This document shows positions 20,134 to 26,351 of a DNA stretch of 46,690 bases, one piece after another (the stretch's first letter is position 1; every line of letters starts with the position of its first letter). Both the position numbers and the translations under genes were made by a program. The notes under the pieces were generated by a model that was not told the DNA's origin, did no database searches, and worked only from the letters and a program-made list of their open reading frames with translations. This DNA comes from Bacteroidota bacterium. Its GTDB lineage: Bacteria; Bacteroidota; Bacteroidia; Bacteroidales; JACABE01. The stretch covers positions 28,753 through 75,442 of the forward strand of contig JACABE010000018.1 in NCBI GenBank assembly GCA_013377005.1. The letters run 5' to 3'.

Positions 20134-20232
20134 AAACCAGACAGGTTTTTAAAACCTGTCTGGTTTGAGAAGAATATTTGCTCTTGATAGCTTCAAATAA
20201 TTTAAGCTTAAACATTGACAGGTTTAACAACG
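20134..20232 (+). repeat. REP-like palindromic element, copy A
   Basis: A perfect hairpin at 20134-20166 has 15-bp arms AAACCAGACAGGTTT / AAACCTGTCTGGTTT and a TTA loop, followed by GAGAAGAAT. After about 40 bp comes TGACAGGTTTAACAACG (20216-20232). The first 42 bases are identical to copy B at 25487. A short outer inverted pair, GCGTTGT (20106-20112) with ACAACGC (20227-20233), would close a larger stem. It lies in the gap after the nucleotidyltransferase gene and could also act as a transcription barrier. Confidence 0.85.
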
Positions 20233-20344
20233 CCGTAAGGTTTAAATTAAAATAATCAGCATATTTTGTAAAAATAAATTTATCAACATTGTTTCTTTAC
20301 AAACCCTTTTTAGTTATTTTAGCAGAAAATAATTAAAACTCTAT

Positions 20345-21388
20345 ATGGCTGATTCAATACTTGATAAACGGAAAACAGATTTTCTCCTGAGGCACCCTGA
20401 ATTGGCTGTTAATCATATATGCAGATATTATCCTTTTAGTTTTGAAGAGTTAAAGGAATATGACAATGAACTTTTGTGGTGGAAAATAGATTTGAATCAT
20501 TACATCCCATGGTCTTATGAAATCATTGATTATTTTATTGACAAGTTTGATTTCAATGGTAAAAATGAATATTACGGACCCGGTTTCTTTTGTCTGAACT
20601 ATGGATTGCCATGGAGTATTGAATTTATTAAACGTTATGAGACACTATGGGACTGGAATATATTGATGTATAATCTAAAACTCAGAAGAAATCCTGAGAT
20701 ATATGAATATATGCAGCAAACTTATCTCAAATATACTACCCCAAAAGATGTAAAACAAGCAAATAAAATAAAAAGTTTTGGTGGAAGCGATTATGATTTA
20801 AGGGAAAATTACCCAGAAATTGACAATTTTATCTTTACATCAGAGTCATTGTGGCATGGGAAACCATATACGACATGGGAAGAAGTAGAAAACGATACTC
20901 CCATCGATTGGGATGAAATCAGTAAAAACAGTTTTTTGCCCTGGAGCATCGAAATCATAGACAAATATAAATATTCTTTGAATTTTAGAAATTTGTGCTG
21001 GAATCATGGTGTACCCTGGTCAACGGAATTGATTTTTAAATTCTTTGTCAGATTTCAGGAAAGTGCAATTTTAGGCTGCGATGAAGATACAACAAATAAA
21101 AATCAATTTTTGGGAATATTGAATCATAACCCATGCTTTCCATGGAATATGAAAAATATCCGAGAACTGGAAGATTATATTCCTTTTGACGAATTGTCAT
21201 TTAATTATTATGCAGAATGGAGTATTGATTTACTTGAATATTACGAAGACAAATGGGATTATCCGAACATGGTCTCTAATCAGGGCATAATCCCAAAAGC
21301 TTTTCCCGAACTCAGTCAATTTGAGGTTATGAAAGAACTCTGGCTTGAAATATTGAAACGCAAACGCAATGCTAAACAAAAATTGTAA
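20345..21388 (+). CDS. PWS-repeat protein of unknown function
   Basis: A 347-residue soluble protein, rich in Trp, Tyr and Asp, is built on a repeated motif of the form PWSxEhIxxYxxxhDW. Copies start at residues 55, 89, 199 and 224, with weaker ones at 266 (PWNMKNI) and 291 (EWSIDLL). Each is followed by a short acidic/aromatic stretch such as DKFDFNG, TLWDWNIL or DKWDYPNM. I have seen such Trp-rich repeats in hypothetical proteins of Bacteroidota but know no function. No signal peptide or membrane helix is visible. Base composition matches the housekeeping genes, unlike the three genes that follow. It is the first gene after REP copy A. Confidence 0.7.
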   Translation: MADSILDKRKTDFLLRHPELAVNHICRYYPFSFEELKEYDNELLWWKIDLNHYIPWSYEIIDYFIDKFDFNGKNEYYGPGFFCLNYGLPWSIEFIKRYETLWDWNILMYNLKLRRNPEIYEYMQQTYLKYTTPKDVKQANKIKSFGGSDYDLRENYPEIDNFIFTSESLWHGKPYTTWEEVENDTPIDWDEISKNSFLPWSIEIIDKYKYSLNFRNLCWNHGVPWSTELIFKFFVRFQESAILGCDEDTTNKNQFLGILNHNPCFPWNMKNIRELEDYIPFDELSFNYYAEWSIDLLEYYEDKWDYPNMVSNQGIIPKAFPELSQFEVMKELWLEILKRKRNAKQKL

Positions 21389-21607
21389 CAATTGGCTATA
21401 AGCTTTCCTGCAAAATTTTTATAAAGCTTAGGTTTAGGGTAAAGGATGGGTTATTTTTGTAGATATTTAACTAAAAATGTCTAATTTTATTAATTTAAAA
21501 ATTGGGAAACAATATTTTAATCTTTATCCTAGTAAAAAATTATATCGAATTAACAGATAGATAAATCTATAGACTTATTTGTTAGAATATTTTAAATAAT
21601 CAAAATC

Positions 21608-22105
21608 ATGATAAATAAATCATTTATTGAACAATTTGGCAAAATTAAACATAGTATAACTGAAGATGAAGTAACAGAATTTATTAAGGAATGGGAAATT
21701 AACCATCCTATAATTATTAATGAAAAGAAATTATTTTTCATAGGAAGATTTGGAGAAGAATATAATGAATTTTCCAAATATCTTTTCACTTTAAAGCCCT
21801 ATAAAACTAATGAAGAAATAACTGAGCTAGTGAAAAAAAGTTATGATAAAGAAATTGAAAATCAAATAGAATCATATAAAATTTTAAAAAATGAAATTAC
21901 CATTCCTAATAAAATTCAACAGAAAGGGACTCAAACGAAAGAAAATTTAGTGTTTATTATAACAATAACAGTTTGTATAGTATCTTTCCTTTTTTCTTGT
22001 TGGATATTTAAAGCTATTCTTTATAAAGCAATAATTTTTGTTGGTATATTTGTTTTAGCATTTATTATATTATACATGATATCTATGTTTGAAAAAGATA
22101 AATAA
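21608..22105 (+). CDS. Unknown protein with two C-terminal membrane helices
   Basis: This 165-residue protein has a soluble, charged N-terminal part of about 115 residues with IGRFGEEYNEFSKYLFTL near the middle. Two close hydrophobic helices follow: VFIITITVCIVSFLFSCWIF (about 115-134) and AIIFVGIFVLAFIILYMISM (about 141-160). It ends in FEKDK. The N-terminal part would be cytoplasmic if the basic/acidic tail stays inside. No family is recognised. The gene is strikingly AT-rich; for example 21841-21900 has only 8 G or C in 60, against about one third elsewhere. It belongs to the AT-rich middle of the accessory island. Confidence 0.6.
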   Translation: MINKSFIEQFGKIKHSITEDEVTEFIKEWEINHPIIINEKKLFFIGRFGEEYNEFSKYLFTLKPYKTNEEITELVKKSYDKEIENQIESYKILKNEITIPNKIQQKGTQTKENLVFIITITVCIVSFLFSCWIFKAILYKAIIFVGIFVLAFIILYMISMFEKDK

Positions 22106-22275
22106 AATTAATTATTTCAAAAACTCGACTAATCACATAAATAATATGGTCAAATGTAGAATTAATTTCGTAAAAGACAAAAATCATTCATTACAAATTA
22201 AGTAAACATAAGAATTATAATCTTCTATATCAAATTATAAAATTTATTGCAAATTATCTTAATAAAAAATCATTG

Positions 22276-23382
22276 ATGAATTTATTAGAAAACTTAATAA
22301 AATATGAGGCTGAAATCAAAAATCACAATGCAAATATTGATGATGGATTTGAACTCAATTTCTCTCATAATTTAAAAATGCCTGTATCTAATAGGGAAAT
22401 TTTTCAAATAGATGTTGAAATAATTATTGGCGATTATTCATTTTATACAAAAATGAATAAAGTTTTTATTCATCAGATAGGAAAAAGGATTTATGATGAA
22501 GAATATGGCAATGAATATTTGCCATTATTTCACCAATGGGTAGAAGATTTTAATAATGATACTGAAAGTTTTAAAAAGAGAATTAAACAAGTATTTAAAA
22601 ATAACTCTTTAATTATTAAATATTTTGAAACAAATAAGAAAATGATTTATGGTATTGTTTCCGATAAATTTGAGGTTACAAATCAGCTTGATTTTCGAAA
22701 AAGATTTATTGAAGTTGCTCAAGAAAGAGGTGTTATTGATATTGAAAGTCCAACAATGTATCAAGTTACATCCAGTAAATATAGCCAAATAAAAGAATAT
22801 TTTAAGTTTGAAACAGATAATTCACAAGTGCAATTAAGTTGTGGAATTGTATATGGTCTAAATAATGGCTATGGTGCATATACAGTTCATTGGATAAGGG
22901 AATATAAAGAATCCAAAACTTGGTTTAGTCCTATTAAAAGTAGTAAACAGGATTACAAATGGCGTAACAACCCAAAGTTTCATGATGAAAGTTCAAAAGT
23001 CGAAATGATCAAATTTGTTGATTTTATTATTGATCAAGGAATTACACATAGTAAGTTTATTGAAGAAAAAGTTAAAATTGCACAGGAAAATCCGATAAAT
23101 GTTTTAGATATGAATACATTTTTAAAACTTCTTAAAGTTGCCGAAGCAACAAAAGTGAGAATAAAAGATCAATTTAGTGAGGAGGTTTTAAAAAAAGGAA
23201 ATACAGAATTTTCATTTAGTGAAAGCATTAGAAATATTGGTACTTTTGATAAATATACAGGAAAAGCAACTAAAAGATTACTAATTGAAACTGGTACAAG
23301 AATAATAGAAGAAGATGGTATAAAAGCATTAATTTCAGAAGATTTAGAGTTTTCCATAAAAGGAGATTATGATTGGTATTAG
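22276..23382 (+). CDS. Unknown 368-residue protein (distant DUF932-like look)
   Basis: This soluble protein has no signal peptide or membrane segment. Residues about 120-215 read like the middle of DUF932 (phage/plasmid-related) proteins: YGIVSDKFEVTNQLDF, then VQLSCGIVYGLNNGYGAYTV. This is an impression from memory, not an established match. The C-terminal 90 residues are helical and charged (FLKLLKVAEATKVRIKDQFS). I start at ATG 22276; a TTG one codon upstream is less likely. It is AT-rich like its neighbours and stands 170 bp after the membrane protein gene and 265 bp before the DUF2971 gene, so it is probably not a tight operon. Confidence 0.6.
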   Translation: MNLLENLIKYEAEIKNHNANIDDGFELNFSHNLKMPVSNREIFQIDVEIIIGDYSFYTKMNKVFIHQIGKRIYDEEYGNEYLPLFHQWVEDFNNDTESFKKRIKQVFKNNSLIIKYFETNKKMIYGIVSDKFEVTNQLDFRKRFIEVAQERGVIDIESPTMYQVTSSKYSQIKEYFKFETDNSQVQLSCGIVYGLNNGYGAYTVHWIREYKESKTWFSPIKSSKQDYKWRNNPKFHDESSKVEMIKFVDFIIDQGITHSKFIEEKVKIAQENPINVLDMNTFLKLLKVAEATKVRIKDQFSEEVLKKGNTEFSFSESIRNIGTFDKYTGKATKRLLIETGTRIIEEDGIKALISEDLEFSIKGDYDWY

Positions 23383-23647
23383 TAAATTGAAATATATACA
23401 AATTAAAAAGATATGAAAATAATCAATACATTGAAATAGAGAATTCAGAAATTCTTACATTAAAATATGTTTTAAACTGATAGGATTAGAGAATAAAATT
23501 TAATTAAAAAAATCAGATAATATTATAACTTATTTTAATAATTAATCTGATCATATATTGAGTTCAATACTTAGTTTTTTTACCAAGATACATTAGAGGG
23601 CTAGATCATTAATAATAATTTTATAGAAAATAATAAACCAAATAATT

Positions 23648-24676
23648 ATGGAAAAATATGGCTGGCAATATAATATAACAGGTGATCAAAGCAATCTGAA
23701 AATGGAAGTAATTCCACCTAAAGATAAAATAAAGCCTTTACCTGAAACACTTTTTAAAATTTATCCACTGAACTCATATTCAATAGATGCTCTATTAAAT
23801 TCATATATTTACGGCTCACATCCAAGTGAATTCAATGATTTGTTTGATTGTCATAAAGATTTGATAGAATATGATGATATTACAGTAATAAGAAAAATTT
23901 TGTCTATGAAATTAGGCGAAAATCATGAATTTTTATTGCGTTTTGATAAAGAAGAAAATATAAAACTTTTTGGGATTGAACTTTTTTATCTTTTATTATA
24001 TAGTACATTTGGCATATATTGCATGTCAGATGATATTAATAATATTACAATTTGGTCAAATTATTGTAATCATAATGGTTTTGCCGTAGAATTTGAAATT
24101 GAAAAATTAAAATCTGATTTAGTAAATAATGGCTACAAACCATTTGGACCATTTCAAGTTAACTACCAAAATGAAATAGAAAAGGTATCATTAATAAAAA
24201 ATCTGTCAGAATCAATTCCTTACCAAACAAATATTAAATCAAAAAGTTGGGAAAATGATAATGAATGGAGATTGCTTATTGAGTCACTATATAAACCGTT
24301 AGAAATACCCGAAAAAGAAATAGATAAATTGATATTACCAAAAGAATTTGAACACTTAGAAAACCCGATTAAATTGTTGAAATGCATTAAAACTGAAAAA
24401 CGAAAATTCAATATTACTATTAATTCTATAAGAAGTATCAGGTTGAGTTTAGATTTCTTTAAAAAAGAAGTGTTAAATAGAATTATTGAAAATGATTCAG
24501 AAGTTATTGTTAATCTAAAAGATGGAAATAAAATTTGTGTGTTAAATTTTATTTTTGAGCATTCAATAGATTTATATATATCATTACCCAACAACCAAAA
24601 GTTTCAAATTGATTTTGAGAGATATGAAATTGAGAAGATCAAATTAAATGAATTTAAATTGACAAAAATAAAATAA
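23648..24676 (+). CDS. DUF2971 family protein
   Basis: A 342-residue protein whose first half fits DUF2971. LFKIYPLNSYSIDALLNS is followed by the family landmark SEFNDLFDC (about residues 60-68). IYCMSDDINNITIWSNYCNH (about 123-142) corresponds to the usual CFS...MWSHYA motif, and GFAVEFE follows. WENDNEWRLL (about 201-210) is the conserved downstream segment (K/S..W..E.EWR). DUF2971 has no settled function and often occurs in mobile or defence-like gene neighbourhoods. The last 120 residues are outside the family core and unknown to me. The gene is AT-rich, and a 45-codon ORF begins 6 bp after its stop. Confidence 0.8.
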   Translation: MEKYGWQYNITGDQSNLKMEVIPPKDKIKPLPETLFKIYPLNSYSIDALLNSYIYGSHPSEFNDLFDCHKDLIEYDDITVIRKILSMKLGENHEFLLRFDKEENIKLFGIELFYLLLYSTFGIYCMSDDINNITIWSNYCNHNGFAVEFEIEKLKSDLVNNGYKPFGPFQVNYQNEIEKVSLIKNLSESIPYQTNIKSKSWENDNEWRLLIESLYKPLEIPEKEIDKLILPKEFEHLENPIKLLKCIKTEKRKFNITINSIRSIRLSLDFFKKEVLNRIIENDSEVIVNLKDGNKICVLNFIFEHSIDLYISLPNNQKFQIDFERYEIEKIKLNEFKLTKIK

Positions 24677-24682
24677 ATATAA

Positions 24683-24820
24683 ATGGAAGATATAGATAAA
24701 AATGAGAAAGTTAATGTTGCAATAAATGGTCATATTGCAGATTTTTTAATAAAATTAAACAATTTTAAATCAATTGATGAAGCTATTACATTTACAGAAA
24801 TTTTAATTAATGCTAAATAA
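24683..24820 (+). CDS. 45-residue ORF downstream of the DUF2971 gene
   Basis: The ATG at 24683 begins a clean 45-codon frame ending at TAA 24818-24820, only 6 bp after the DUF2971 stop. The product is acidic then amphipathic (MEDIDKNEKVNVAINGHI..., ending in ILINAK), with no membrane helix. Its spacing suggests it is translated with the DUF2971 gene. It could be a small partner protein or the remnant of a longer gene; I do not recognise it. Confidence 0.4.
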   Translation: MEDIDKNEKVNVAINGHIADFLIKLNNFKSIDEAITFTEILINAK

Positions 24821-24834
24821 TTAACCCAACTCAA

Positions 24835-25470
24835 ATGATACCAGGTCTTTATTATTTTTTTGAATGTCCACATTGTGGCTATCAGCTTAAAAAAGGGAGT
24901 TTTGCCTCGGCTAACACTTTTGGAGCTAAATTGTATTCCGATTTAAAACGGCTGGCACCCGATTGTACTGAATATCCAATTATTTCAAGATGCAAAAATT
25001 GTTATCAGATTTTCTGGCTCATGGATTCCAATCTTATAACAGAAAGTGATGATGATGATCTTTGGCTCATTAAAAACAAGAAAAAAGTAGAAGATGCCGA
25101 ATTTCTGGATGTGTACGATTATTTTGAAGCACTGGAAATGAAACTTTCAAATAATATTGAAGATGAAGTCTATCTCAGAAATAATATTCTCTGGTGTTTT
25201 AATGACAGGATACGTGATGCAGAAGTATACTCTGATTCAAAAGCCGATATGATAATTTGGAGGCAAAACTTAAACAGACTGATTGAGATTCTAGATTATA
25301 CTAATATAGATCAGAGAATATTGATGGCAGAGTTATATAGAAATCTCGGAAATTTCGAAAAATGTATTGCATTAATTGAAAGTATCGAACCTGAAGATTA
25401 TGCTTGGTTAAAAGAAAAATATATCAATGAATGTAGTAAGAAAAATAAAATGGTTTTCTTGCTCTATTAG
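24835..25470 (+). CDS. Zinc-ribbon protein with TPR-like C-terminus, function unknown
   Basis: This 211-residue protein opens with a four-cysteine zinc ribbon split by about 40 residues: Cys11 and Cys14 (ECPHCGY), then Cys53 and Cys56 (RCKNCYQIFW). The C-terminal half is helical, and residues about 165-205 (QRILMAELYRNLGNFEKCIA) look like one or two TPR units. No signal peptide. Its base composition (21 G or C in 24841-24900) is close to the genome average and unlike the AT-rich genes just upstream. It may therefore share origin with the PWS-repeat gene rather than with the genes between. REP copy B begins 16 bp after its stop. Confidence 0.65.
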   Translation: MIPGLYYFFECPHCGYQLKKGSFASANTFGAKLYSDLKRLAPDCTEYPIISRCKNCYQIFWLMDSNLITESDDDDLWLIKNKKKVEDAEFLDVYDYFEALEMKLSNNIEDEVYLRNNILWCFNDRIRDAEVYSDSKADMIIWRQNLNRLIEILDYTNIDQRILMAELYRNLGNFEKCIALIESIEPEDYAWLKEKYINECSKKNKMVFLLY

Positions 25471-25486
25471 GCATTTAAAATTGTCT

Positions 25487-25592
25487 AAACCAGACAGGTT
25501 TTTAAAACCTGTCTGGTTTGAGAAGAATGCATAGCAGCTGACAGCATTATAAGAAAAAGGAAAACAATAAAAGTTGTCAGGTTTAAGCAACG
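25487..25592 (+). repeat. REP-like palindromic element, copy B (upstream of the RAYT gene)
   Basis: A perfect hairpin at 25487-25519 is followed by GAGAAGAAT; the 42 bases 25487-25528 are identical to copy A. A second part, GTCAGGTTTAAGCAACG at 25576-25592, matches the 3' part of copy A apart from single-base changes. It ends 12 bp before the transposase start codon, so it could form in the transposase mRNA leader. Confidence 0.85.
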
Positions 25593-25604
25593 AAAAAAAT
25601 AAAT

Positions 25605-26294
25605 ATGCAGCAAACAGAAACATTAATTTATGGCAATTATTATCACATTTATAATCGTGGAATAAATAGTTGCGATTTGTTTAGAGATGCTGATAATTAT
25701 GAGCATTTTCTGAATTTATATGATAAATATATTTCGCCTATTGCCGATACGTATGCATGGGTTTTGATGCCTAATCATTTTCATTTGTTGTTAAGGATAA
25801 AAGATGAAAAAGAAATACTTTCATCCTCAAACCTGACAGGTTTTAAAAACCTGTCAGGTTTAGGCCAAGCCCAAAATACTCATCAAAACCTATCAGGGTT
25901 AAACCAAGCCCAAAATACGCTTCAGAATCTGTCAGGTATAAGACTACCATTTAAACATTTTTCCGATTTATTTAACGCATACTCAAAAGCTTTTAATAAA
26001 CGATTTAATCGTCATGGCAGTTTATTTGAACGTCCCTTTAAACGAAAGGTAATCGACAATGAAATCTATTTAAAACAAGTACTTTTGTATATTCACAATA
26101 ATCCTGTTCATCATGGTTTTTGTGAGCATCCAATGGAATATGCATGGAGTAGCTATTTAAGCTGTATTTCGTTAAAGCCGACGAAACTAAAAAGAGATAT
26201 TATTATTGGATGGTTTGATGATTTGGCAAATTTTAAAACAATACATAATCAAAATATAGAAATTACTGCAATTGAAAAATTACTGGAAATTTAA
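25605..26294 (+). CDS. REP-associated tyrosine transposase (RAYT), Y1/HUH family
   Basis: A 229-residue single-strand transposase related to IS200/IS605 TnpA. The N-terminal YHIYNRG (residues 13-19) is typical. The HUH metal site is His58 and His60 in MPNHFHLLL. RFNRHGSLFERPFKR (about 134-147) is conserved, and the probable catalytic tyrosine is Tyr162 in LYIHNNPV. Such proteins cut and join REP hairpins. Oddly, residues about 75-112 are an insertion encoded by a REP-like hairpin plus two degenerate 13-residue repeats (SGLxQAQNTxQNL), all in frame. REP hairpins also lie just upstream (copy B) and 5 bp after the stop (copy C). The frame and key residues are intact, so activity is plausible. 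Confidence 0.9.
   Translation: MQQTETLIYGNYYHIYNRGINSCDLFRDADNYEHFLNLYDKYISPIADTYAWVLMPNHFHLLLRIKDEKEILSSSNLTGFKNLSGLGQAQNTHQNLSGLNQAQNTLQNLSGIRLPFKHFSDLFNAYSKAFNKRFNRHGSLFERPFKRKVIDNEIYLKQVLLYIHNNPVHHGFCEHPMEYAWSSYLSCISLKPTKLKRDIIIGWFDDLANFKTIHNQNIEITAIEKLLEI
25829..25861 (+). repeat. REP-like palindrome inside the RAYT coding sequence (copy D)
   Basis: A perfect 33-base hairpin has 15-bp arms AAACCTGACAGGTTT / AAACCTGTCAGGTTT and a TAA loop (not in frame as a stop). It is translated as NLTGFKNLSGL within the transposase. It differs from copies A and B at the arm centre (CCTGACAGG against CCAGACAGG) and is 33 bases long like them. Confidence 0.85.
25854..25940 (+). repeat. Degenerate 39-bp direct repeats in the RAYT gene
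   Basis: Units at 25854-25892 and 25893-25931 share TCAGG...CCAAGCCCAAAATAC, and a third start (TCAGGTATA) follows at 25932. Each unit encodes 13 residues and begins with the right-hand half of the REP hairpin arm, so the repeat array seems to have grown out of the inserted hairpin. Confidence 0.75.
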
Positions 26295-26298
26295 TTCG

Positions 26299-26351
26299 AA
26301 ACCAGTCAGGTTTTAAAAACCTGACCGGTTTGAGAAACTGTTAAACAACGC
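26299..26351 (+). repeat. REP-like palindromic element, copy C (downstream of the RAYT gene)
   Basis: The hairpin at 26299-26331 has arms AAACCAGTCAGGTTT / AAACCTGACCGGTTT (one A-C mismatch) and a TAA loop, followed by GAGAA. GTTAAACAACGC at 26340-26351 matches the 3' end of copy A. It begins 5 bp after the transposase stop codon and may double as its terminator. Confidence 0.8.

Follow-up and report, generated by a model that had tools for sequence, protein, structure and literature searches.

The closest described relatives of the arrangement reported here are found among the RAYT or TnpAREP proteins, tyrosine transposases associated with REP elements. For their subclass 2.4, which they map to RAYT group 4 of Bertels et al. 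(2017), Quentin et al. (2018; PMC6006769) describe, in the accessible sections of the article, REPs inserted within tnpAREP genes without disruption of the frame. As a rule, these insertions are placed between HuH and Y; the region concerned is variable and peripheral, and it is located away from the face that binds DNA. In the accessible text of the open-access literature, REPs inside tnpAREP genes were found reported by Quentin et al. only. A further group, TnpAREP subclass 2.6 of the Bacteroidetes, has a W-Q motif and a short insertion between alphaC and beta4. For E. coli (subclass 2.2), PDB entry 4er8 represents a RAYT bound to a REP hairpin. The E. coli enzyme shares with the RAYT analysed here the HUH motif, the tyrosine and hairpin copies beside the gene. 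To our knowledge, there is no REP inside the E. coli tnpAREP gene. Its product reads a GTAG foot, a feature that the hairpins of the clade described below lack, and the residues W94, Q95, E100, H101 and R104 are responsible for this reading (Quentin et al., PMC6006769, accessible sections). Palindromic repeats in frame in protein genes are also known as Rickettsia palindromic elements (RPEs; accessible text of PMC10969869 and PMC3733652), which differ in being about 150 bp long and in residing in many unrelated genes, whereas the palindromes of the window clade measure 33 nt and are concentrated in one loop of one gene family. Likewise, the intragenic GTAG/CGTC REPs (Di Nocera et al., 2013; PMC3733652, accessible text) lie within coding regions, but in those of various host genes, whereas here 55 RAYT loops stand against 15 palindromes in other open reading frames of at least 120 aa.

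The window, i.e., the whole stretch of 46,690 nucleotides analysed here, contains a RAYT gene with a REP-like palindrome in its coding sequence. A preliminary description, made from the sequence alone, had noticed this palindrome and knew of no described case, a view superseded by the subclass 2.4 genes of Quentin et al. (2018; PMC6006769, accessible sections). The kind of arrangement is already published. New are a clade without the GTAG-reading residues and without GTAG feet, the loop count of 55 out of 196 genes, the likeness of inner palindromes to their own flanks, at least 31 changes of presence or absence, and RAYT loops holding the sole pattern matches in 4 of 5 genomes chosen for their lack of related flanking copies.

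Materials and Methods

A first look at 59 genomes, 25 of them with a match, had revealed open reading frames of relatives with different palindromes at the same place. The sample consisted of 235 loci: 80 loci on GTDB contigs (Prolixibacteraceae, Marinilabiliaceae, Flavobacterium and others), 80 order-wide stretches from among the matches listed from 393 genomes, and 75 loci from searches of the window genome, of its relatives and of the order. They yielded 231 profile matches; 206 were left after removal of identical or contained proteins, and 196 were kept as distinct RAYTs with H60, Y162 and N-terminus. An arm score of at least 11 with at most 2 mismatches was used as cutoff for a palindrome. 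In the seed alignment A1, 7 of 11 rows had a loop palindrome; when the seeds are excluded, 49 of the remaining 186 genes have one. One dropped seed, L029 (G033:C36), possesses a loop palindrome and lacks the Tyr of the Y motif. For density counts one RAYT per locus was taken as the RAYT, and all palindromes were counted, because the class termed "family" takes its definition from the very palindromes of the loop and the near flanks.

The RAYT gene of the window and its inner palindrome

The inner palindrome, AAACCTGACAGGTTTTAAAAACCTGTCAGGTTT, was read directly from the window. It is perfect, with 100% complementary arms of 16 nt and a centre of 1 nt. As the preliminary description had it, this 33-base palindrome lies between the HUH motif (H58/F59/H60) and Tyr162, and the frame of 229 aa runs through it unbroken as NLTGFKNLSGL (Table 1). 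The predicted stability of the hairpin is -21.2 kcal/mol as RNA and -15.3 kcal/mol as DNA. Its 38-nt match to the upstream copy takes in non-palindromic feet, and the inner copy is inverted relative to both flanking copies.

The identification of the gene as a RAYT held. The NCBIfam profile REP_Tyr_transpos matched the window protein with an E value of 5e-16, though at 58.9 bits below the curated cut-off of 80; Pfam Y1_Tnp (E 0.0042, 17.7 bits) also stayed below its cut-off of 23. Entry 4er8 was the sole PDB match by profile (E 2.5e-6) and the first fold match (E 2.4e-7, TM 0.72 by target length), i.e., E. coli TnpAREP is the best match by both fold and profile. In an alignment of 64 rows, that of the window protein included, N57, H58, F59, H60 and Y162 were invariant. 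Two features of RAYT/TnpAREP genes are present, the HUH motif with a single catalytic Tyr and flanking palindromic repeats that also occur elsewhere in the genome. The flexible loop supposed by the preliminary description corresponds to a predicted low-confidence loop: the AlphaFold model has a mean pLDDT of 89.9, with block means that fall to 57-71 over residues 71-110 and, the two protein ends excepted, stay at 92 or above outside this segment.

Table 1. Features of the RAYT locus and related palindromes, in positions of the window.
Feature	Position (nt)	Strand	Basis or remark
RAYT gene (REP-associated tyrosine transposase, HUH/Y1 family), 229 aa	25605..26294	+	ORF, NCBIfam, Pfam, fold match 4er8
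HUH motif codons His58, Phe59, His60	25776..25784	+	N57 H58 F59 H60 invariant in 64 rows
Inner REP-like palindrome, 16+1+16 nt, in frame (NLTGFKNLSGL)	25829..25861	+	Sequence, repeat search
Extended element, 38 nt, 95% match to upstream flanking copy, inverted relative to that copy	25826..25863	-	
39-bp tandem repeat (13 aa, NLSGLxQAQNTxQ), about 2.4 copies	25846..25940	+	Each copy begins with the right half-arm
SLFE, residues 139-142, at the place of E. coli N-I-W94-Q95	26019..26030	+	Alignment
Catalytic Tyr162 codon (YIHNNP motif)	26088..26090	+	Y162 invariant in 64 rows
Upstream flanking REP-like palindrome, perfect 16+1+16	25487..25519	+	Under a 71-aa ORF, 25408-25623 (-)
Downstream flanking REP-like palindrome, one unpaired position	26299..26331	+	5 nt past the stop codon
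Lone REP-like palindrome, same sequence as 25487-25519	20134..20166	+	

Copies of the palindrome in the window and its genome

The three palindromes of like design outside the gene, which the preliminary description had listed, are all real. Allowing up to 3 mismatches to a 31-nt pattern, 4 places were found in the window and none in 100 dinucleotide shuffles of it, while the whole genome (3.69 Mb) contained 9 places and the reversed-pattern control 0. It had been conceded beforehand that the likeness would be chance if the 33-mer was no repeat in the genome; with 9 places it is a true repeat. Of the 9 copies, the inner one alone lies in an open reading frame of at least 90 aa. Six of the other 8 copies, the dispersed ones, were checked further and are found in no frame of at least 60 aa; the downstream flanking copy lies in no listed frame, and the upstream one is covered only by the short minus-strand frame of Table 1. 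Two dispersed copies on contig C15 and one on C45 are identical to the inner copy over 31 nt, on the opposite strand, while both flanking copies have 2 mismatches each to the pattern and are less like the inner copy than these three, a point against local deposition. Based on the repeat comparison and the genome-wide pattern matches, the palindrome belongs to the RAYT's own REP-like family.

The lone copy and the upstream flanking copy share 42 identical bases in direct orientation and bound a 5.3-kb segment (20167-25486) with several open reading frames. This segment is absent from the sister genome G001 (C212; L021, L236), in which the stretch left of it abuts the RAYT. The window genome (G000) encodes a second RAYT (C29:22741-23613; L010, L011), which is interrupted, its matches falling in two open frames about 300 nt apart around residues 49-54.

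Comparison with subclass 2.4

With subclass 2.4, as presented in the accessible sections of Quentin et al. (PMC6006769), the window clade shares in-frame REPs inside the gene, generally between HuH and Y. NHFH and YIHNNP fit the motifs NH[IFV]H and YIxNNP, the beta3-alphaC insertion region is variable in length and sequence, and Bacteroidetes are among the hosts. Unlike subclass 2.4, the clade has F-E in place of W-Q, and the other GTAG-reading residues are not kept either: E. coli W94, Q95, E100, H101 and R104 align to F, E, R, K and D of the window protein. At the W-Q position, F-E was found in 121 of 196 genes, and a W at its start in 3 distant rows only. The W-Q motif of subclass 2.6 is likewise absent in the window protein. 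Also unlike subclass 2.4, no GT[AG]G foot or double foot was seen above control at the clade's hairpins; among 271 palindromes the GT[AG]G foot occurred at 10, compared to 7 in a shifted control. A GAG foot, borne by 5 of the 9 window-genome copies, was rejected as a conserved feature, with 12 of the 271 palindromes versus 11 in the shifted control. Because of these residues and feet the clade was not filed in subclass 2.4, although it behaves like it. The matching of inner to outer hairpins, the 31 changes and the sole-copy genomes were not found in the accessible sections of that article.

The loop is the place of palindromes in the gene

Using the cutoff given above, a palindrome was detected between HUH and helix C in 55 of the 196 RAYT genes. 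Elsewhere in these genes 1 was found before HUH, 0 from the loop end to Tyr and 3 in the C-terminal part, with the loop accounting for 7793 of 43612 codons (18%). Under a strict rule (perfect, arm of at least 14), the loop kept 36 palindromes and the other parts of the gene 1. All 15 of 15 pairs were formed in 33 loops versus 0.0 of 196 expected after codon shuffling, while 14 pairs were counted in 16 genes and 13 pairs in 5. At 12 of 15 pairs there were 13 loops against 3.8 expected, so that some worn copies exist. The preliminary description would have been contradicted by an unrelated loop of one length in all relatives; instead, the distance from HUH to the helix varies from 18 to 100 aa.

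In 194 loci, palindrome density was 2.38 per kb in the RAYT loop (55 palindromes), 0.040 in the rest of the RAYT (4), 0.021 in other open reading frames of at least 120 aa (15) and 1.07 in all other DNA (277). Close to the RAYT ends, up to 50 nt away, it reached 5.0 per kb upstream and 7.7 per kb downstream, with about 2 per kb at 50-100 nt and 0.06-0.14 per kb beyond 400 nt. The loop is therefore about as dense in palindromes as the DNA adjoining the gene. Such a pattern is what short-range deposition together with loss of harmful insertions would give.

Palindromes in other long frames include three in one frame of L171 (753-1071), two in one frame of L075 (2515-3001) and one each at L184 1368 and L110 4610. 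The frame of L171 may encode a protein kinase. A second loop type of about 50-56 aa was seen in L021, L114, L158 and others, several of them with the protein pattern KWET..LS...APD.VK. Its DNA forms imperfect, bulged inverted repeats; perhaps it is an old complex REP turned into protein. Neighbouring RAYT copies occur in L122 (3985 and 5339) and in L158 (2526 and 4194). Of the two in L158, one carries a loop palindrome and its neighbour the second loop type.

Inner palindromes resemble those of their own flanks

From locus to locus, the inner palindromes have very different arm sequences. Among the 55 carriers, 43 have an outer palindrome within 600 nt; for these, the mean best match to the own flank was 25.2 of 31 compared to 17.6 of 31 for the flanks of other loci, a difference reached in 0 of 20,000 permutations. 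A match of at least 26 of 31 was observed in 29 of these 43 genes. In 7 it was 20 of 31 or less, which counts against local deposition.

The likeness extends beyond palindromes. Loop DNA, palindromic or not, aligned to its own flanks at a score of at least 36 in 60 of 196 genes, while control segments of equal length did so in 6 genes before HUH, 0 just after the loop and 6 behind Tyr; of 587 pairs of loops with flanks of other loci, 4.1% reached this score. When the 10 genes with a control match before HUH or behind Tyr (tandem RAYT copies) were dropped, which sets these two controls to 0 by construction, 52 of 186 loops remained versus 0 of 186 segments after the loop. In L050, L096, L087, L028 and L103, loop and flank have 83-129 nt of mostly non-palindromic DNA in common, so non-palindromic loops may also be flank copies, of a more complex kind; L102 is a tandem RAYT fragment. 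An association of loop palindromes with flanking palindromes within 300 nt (Fisher p 0.012, 182 genes) was not relied on, with 10 independent tree pairs giving a median p of 0.375. In G014, 29 places belong to the family of the loop palindrome; its copies on the RAYT's own contig C242 (L075, L252), the inner one included, have A/T-rich centres, and its dispersed copies mostly have G or C there.

Turnover of the inner palindromes

A tree built from 158 core columns, the loop left out, requires at least 31 changes in the presence of a loop palindrome, compared to a mean of 48 and a least value of 41 for 200 sets of shuffled labels. The number is approximate, because this tree was built by a fast method and many of its forks are weak (stars on 35 of 193 inner branches). 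As these changes are fewer than with shuffled labels, presence is partly inherited and often gained or lost. The nearest relative of the window RAYT, with 87% core identity, lacks a loop palindrome. The centres of 59 inner palindromes fell into frame classes of 34, 14, 8, 2 and 1, with at least 19 frame changes among carriers. No clean exact empty site was detected in the loop pair alignments or in the sister genome G001, of three searched by DNA, which counts against the deposition model discussed below.

Discussion

We consider it moderately probable that copies of the cognate REP land again and again next to and within its own gene, and that inside the gene only those in the permissive loop survive. 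The hairpin would be a copy of the REP-like element belonging to the window RAYT, as its likeness to the own flanks suggests. Copies would be laid down mostly adjoining the RAYT gene, from which palindrome density falls steeply with distance, and probably stem from the RAYT's own single-strand cutting and joining near where the enzyme is made. Within the gene body they would survive only in the flexible loop from the HUH strand to helix C and in open frame, since copies elsewhere in the gene would break the enzyme. The inner palindromes are indeed located in frame in this loop, which is modelled at low confidence, and the rest of the gene is depleted of them. The loop would act as a recurrent landing site with its content replaced whenever the cognate family changes, and inner and outer hairpins would stay alike for this reason; at least 31 changes between presence and absence are observed. 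We infer mobilisation of the copies by the RAYT itself, movement in cis, and no additional role for the majority of inner copies.

Loops with the sole copy of their genome count against deposition, because a passive insert of an active family should have kin. The loop palindrome of the C29 RAYT, which has no other copy in the window genome, has to be read in the same way. In 17 of 55 carriers no related palindrome (at least 22 of 31) was found elsewhere in the fetched locus; 5 of these 17 had a partial match of 18-21. Five genomes, picked not at random from the carriers without related flanking copies, were searched completely with the pattern of the loop, a search that would miss palindromes of other sequence. 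In G162 the only two matches were the loops of its two RAYT genes, and G240, G135 and G255 (the last 66% complete) had a single match each, again the RAYT loop, while G069 had nine matches with one in a RAYT loop. Sole-copy hairpins may be what is left of families that have disappeared elsewhere, may have come in recently by transfer, or may be kept for a purpose.

Under the last of these options the inner hairpin would be functional. The RAYT would bind or cut it, in the mRNA or in single-stranded DNA; the hairpin would thereby limit expression of the enzyme or mark its own gene, and selection would keep it matched to the specificity of the enzyme. We regard this as unlikely, although several observations agree with it. 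Four of the five chosen genomes contain pattern matches only in RAYT loops, and 14 of the 17 carriers without a related locus palindrome, the five with partial matches counted among the 17, are perfect (two of the 14 with arms of only 11). Mismatches of 0, 1 and 2 were found in 43, 14 and 2 inner and in 164, 44 and 4 outer palindromes, i.e., in similar spectra, and worn intermediates are few (33, 16 and 5 genes with 15, 14 and 13 pairs). The predicted RNA fold is stable at -21.2 kcal/mol. Compared with L084 and L156, which have their palindrome in the same slot, L088 shows one change on both arms with pairing kept. On the other side, the changes of L121, L124 and L125 are one-sided, as expected for decay, and these pair counts do not decide between the readings. 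Two-sided changes are common among the same-slot carriers listed, but these carriers had been chosen as palindromic. Compensatory change was thus rejected as proof, because replacement gives the same picture and close pairs point both ways. The hairpin is not required either, since 141 of 196 relatives have no palindrome by the cutoff used. Furthermore, the 13 loops at 12 of 15 pairs (3.8 expected) include worn ones, and frame and position vary. With 2 mismatches, the inner copy of G002 (C42) is more worn than both its flanks (0 each) and two dispersed copies (at most 1); the idea of the inner copy as a general master copy was rejected on this account. A maintained built-in target copy, matched to the specificity of the enzyme, outlasting the extragenic copies and serving self-recognition of the gene or message, is improbable to the same degree. 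If true, such self-recognition would let the RAYT curb its own expression, or would preserve a protected master copy able to reseed a REP family that has been lost.

Instead of the transposase, replication error might have produced the inner copies, with the polymerase switching templates between hairpins or folding back on one arm and thereby copying and perfecting a palindrome. This appears quite unlikely. Perfect arms longer than the usual 16 nt, with 22 nt in L058 and 25 nt in L181, the copies of the right half-arm as tandem repeat in the window gene, and the 83-129 nt, mostly non-palindromic, common to loop and flank in the five loci named above are in line with it. Replication error alone leaves unexplained the dispersed repeats at 9, 29 and 28 places in G000, G014 and G338 and the density peak within 50 nt of RAYT genes.

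It is very unlikely that the encoded peptide matters, i.e., that REP-coded loop residues help the RAYT to recognise the REP, so that reader and target would evolve jointly. The REP sequences of loop and flank do vary together, and the loop residues with them. However, closely similar palindromes are translated in different frames into unrelated peptides such as NLTGFxNLSGL and PDRVxNPVR, with the frame changes among carriers counted above (at least 19), and a peptide function of the loop was rejected for these differing frames. The low confidence of the modelled loop speaks against it as well, as does the position of the variable region of subclass 2.4 away from the DNA-binding face in the accessible sections of Quentin et al. 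(PMC6006769). A chance or low-complexity palindrome, for which the AT-rich DNA and the variable loops could be cited, has a negligible probability and was ruled out by the genome repeat count, the shuffles (0 in 100), the codon shuffling (33 loops at 15 of 15 pairs versus 0.0 expected) and the own-flank match.

From the interpretation given in the preliminary description, the RAYT, its own REP-like family and the low-confidence loop stood, and the claim that no case had been described fell with subclass 2.4 (Quentin et al., 2018, accessible sections). The inner hairpin may have a retained function, an option resting on the sole-copy cases; in these genomes it could be a remnant, a master copy or a regulator. 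How the REP elements, which are common repeats of bacteria, come to spread is not well understood so far, and the RAYT clade described here points to short-range deposition around the gene. RAYT genes that may hold their own REP offer a built-in record of the pairing of hairpin and enzyme, even outside the GTAG rule.
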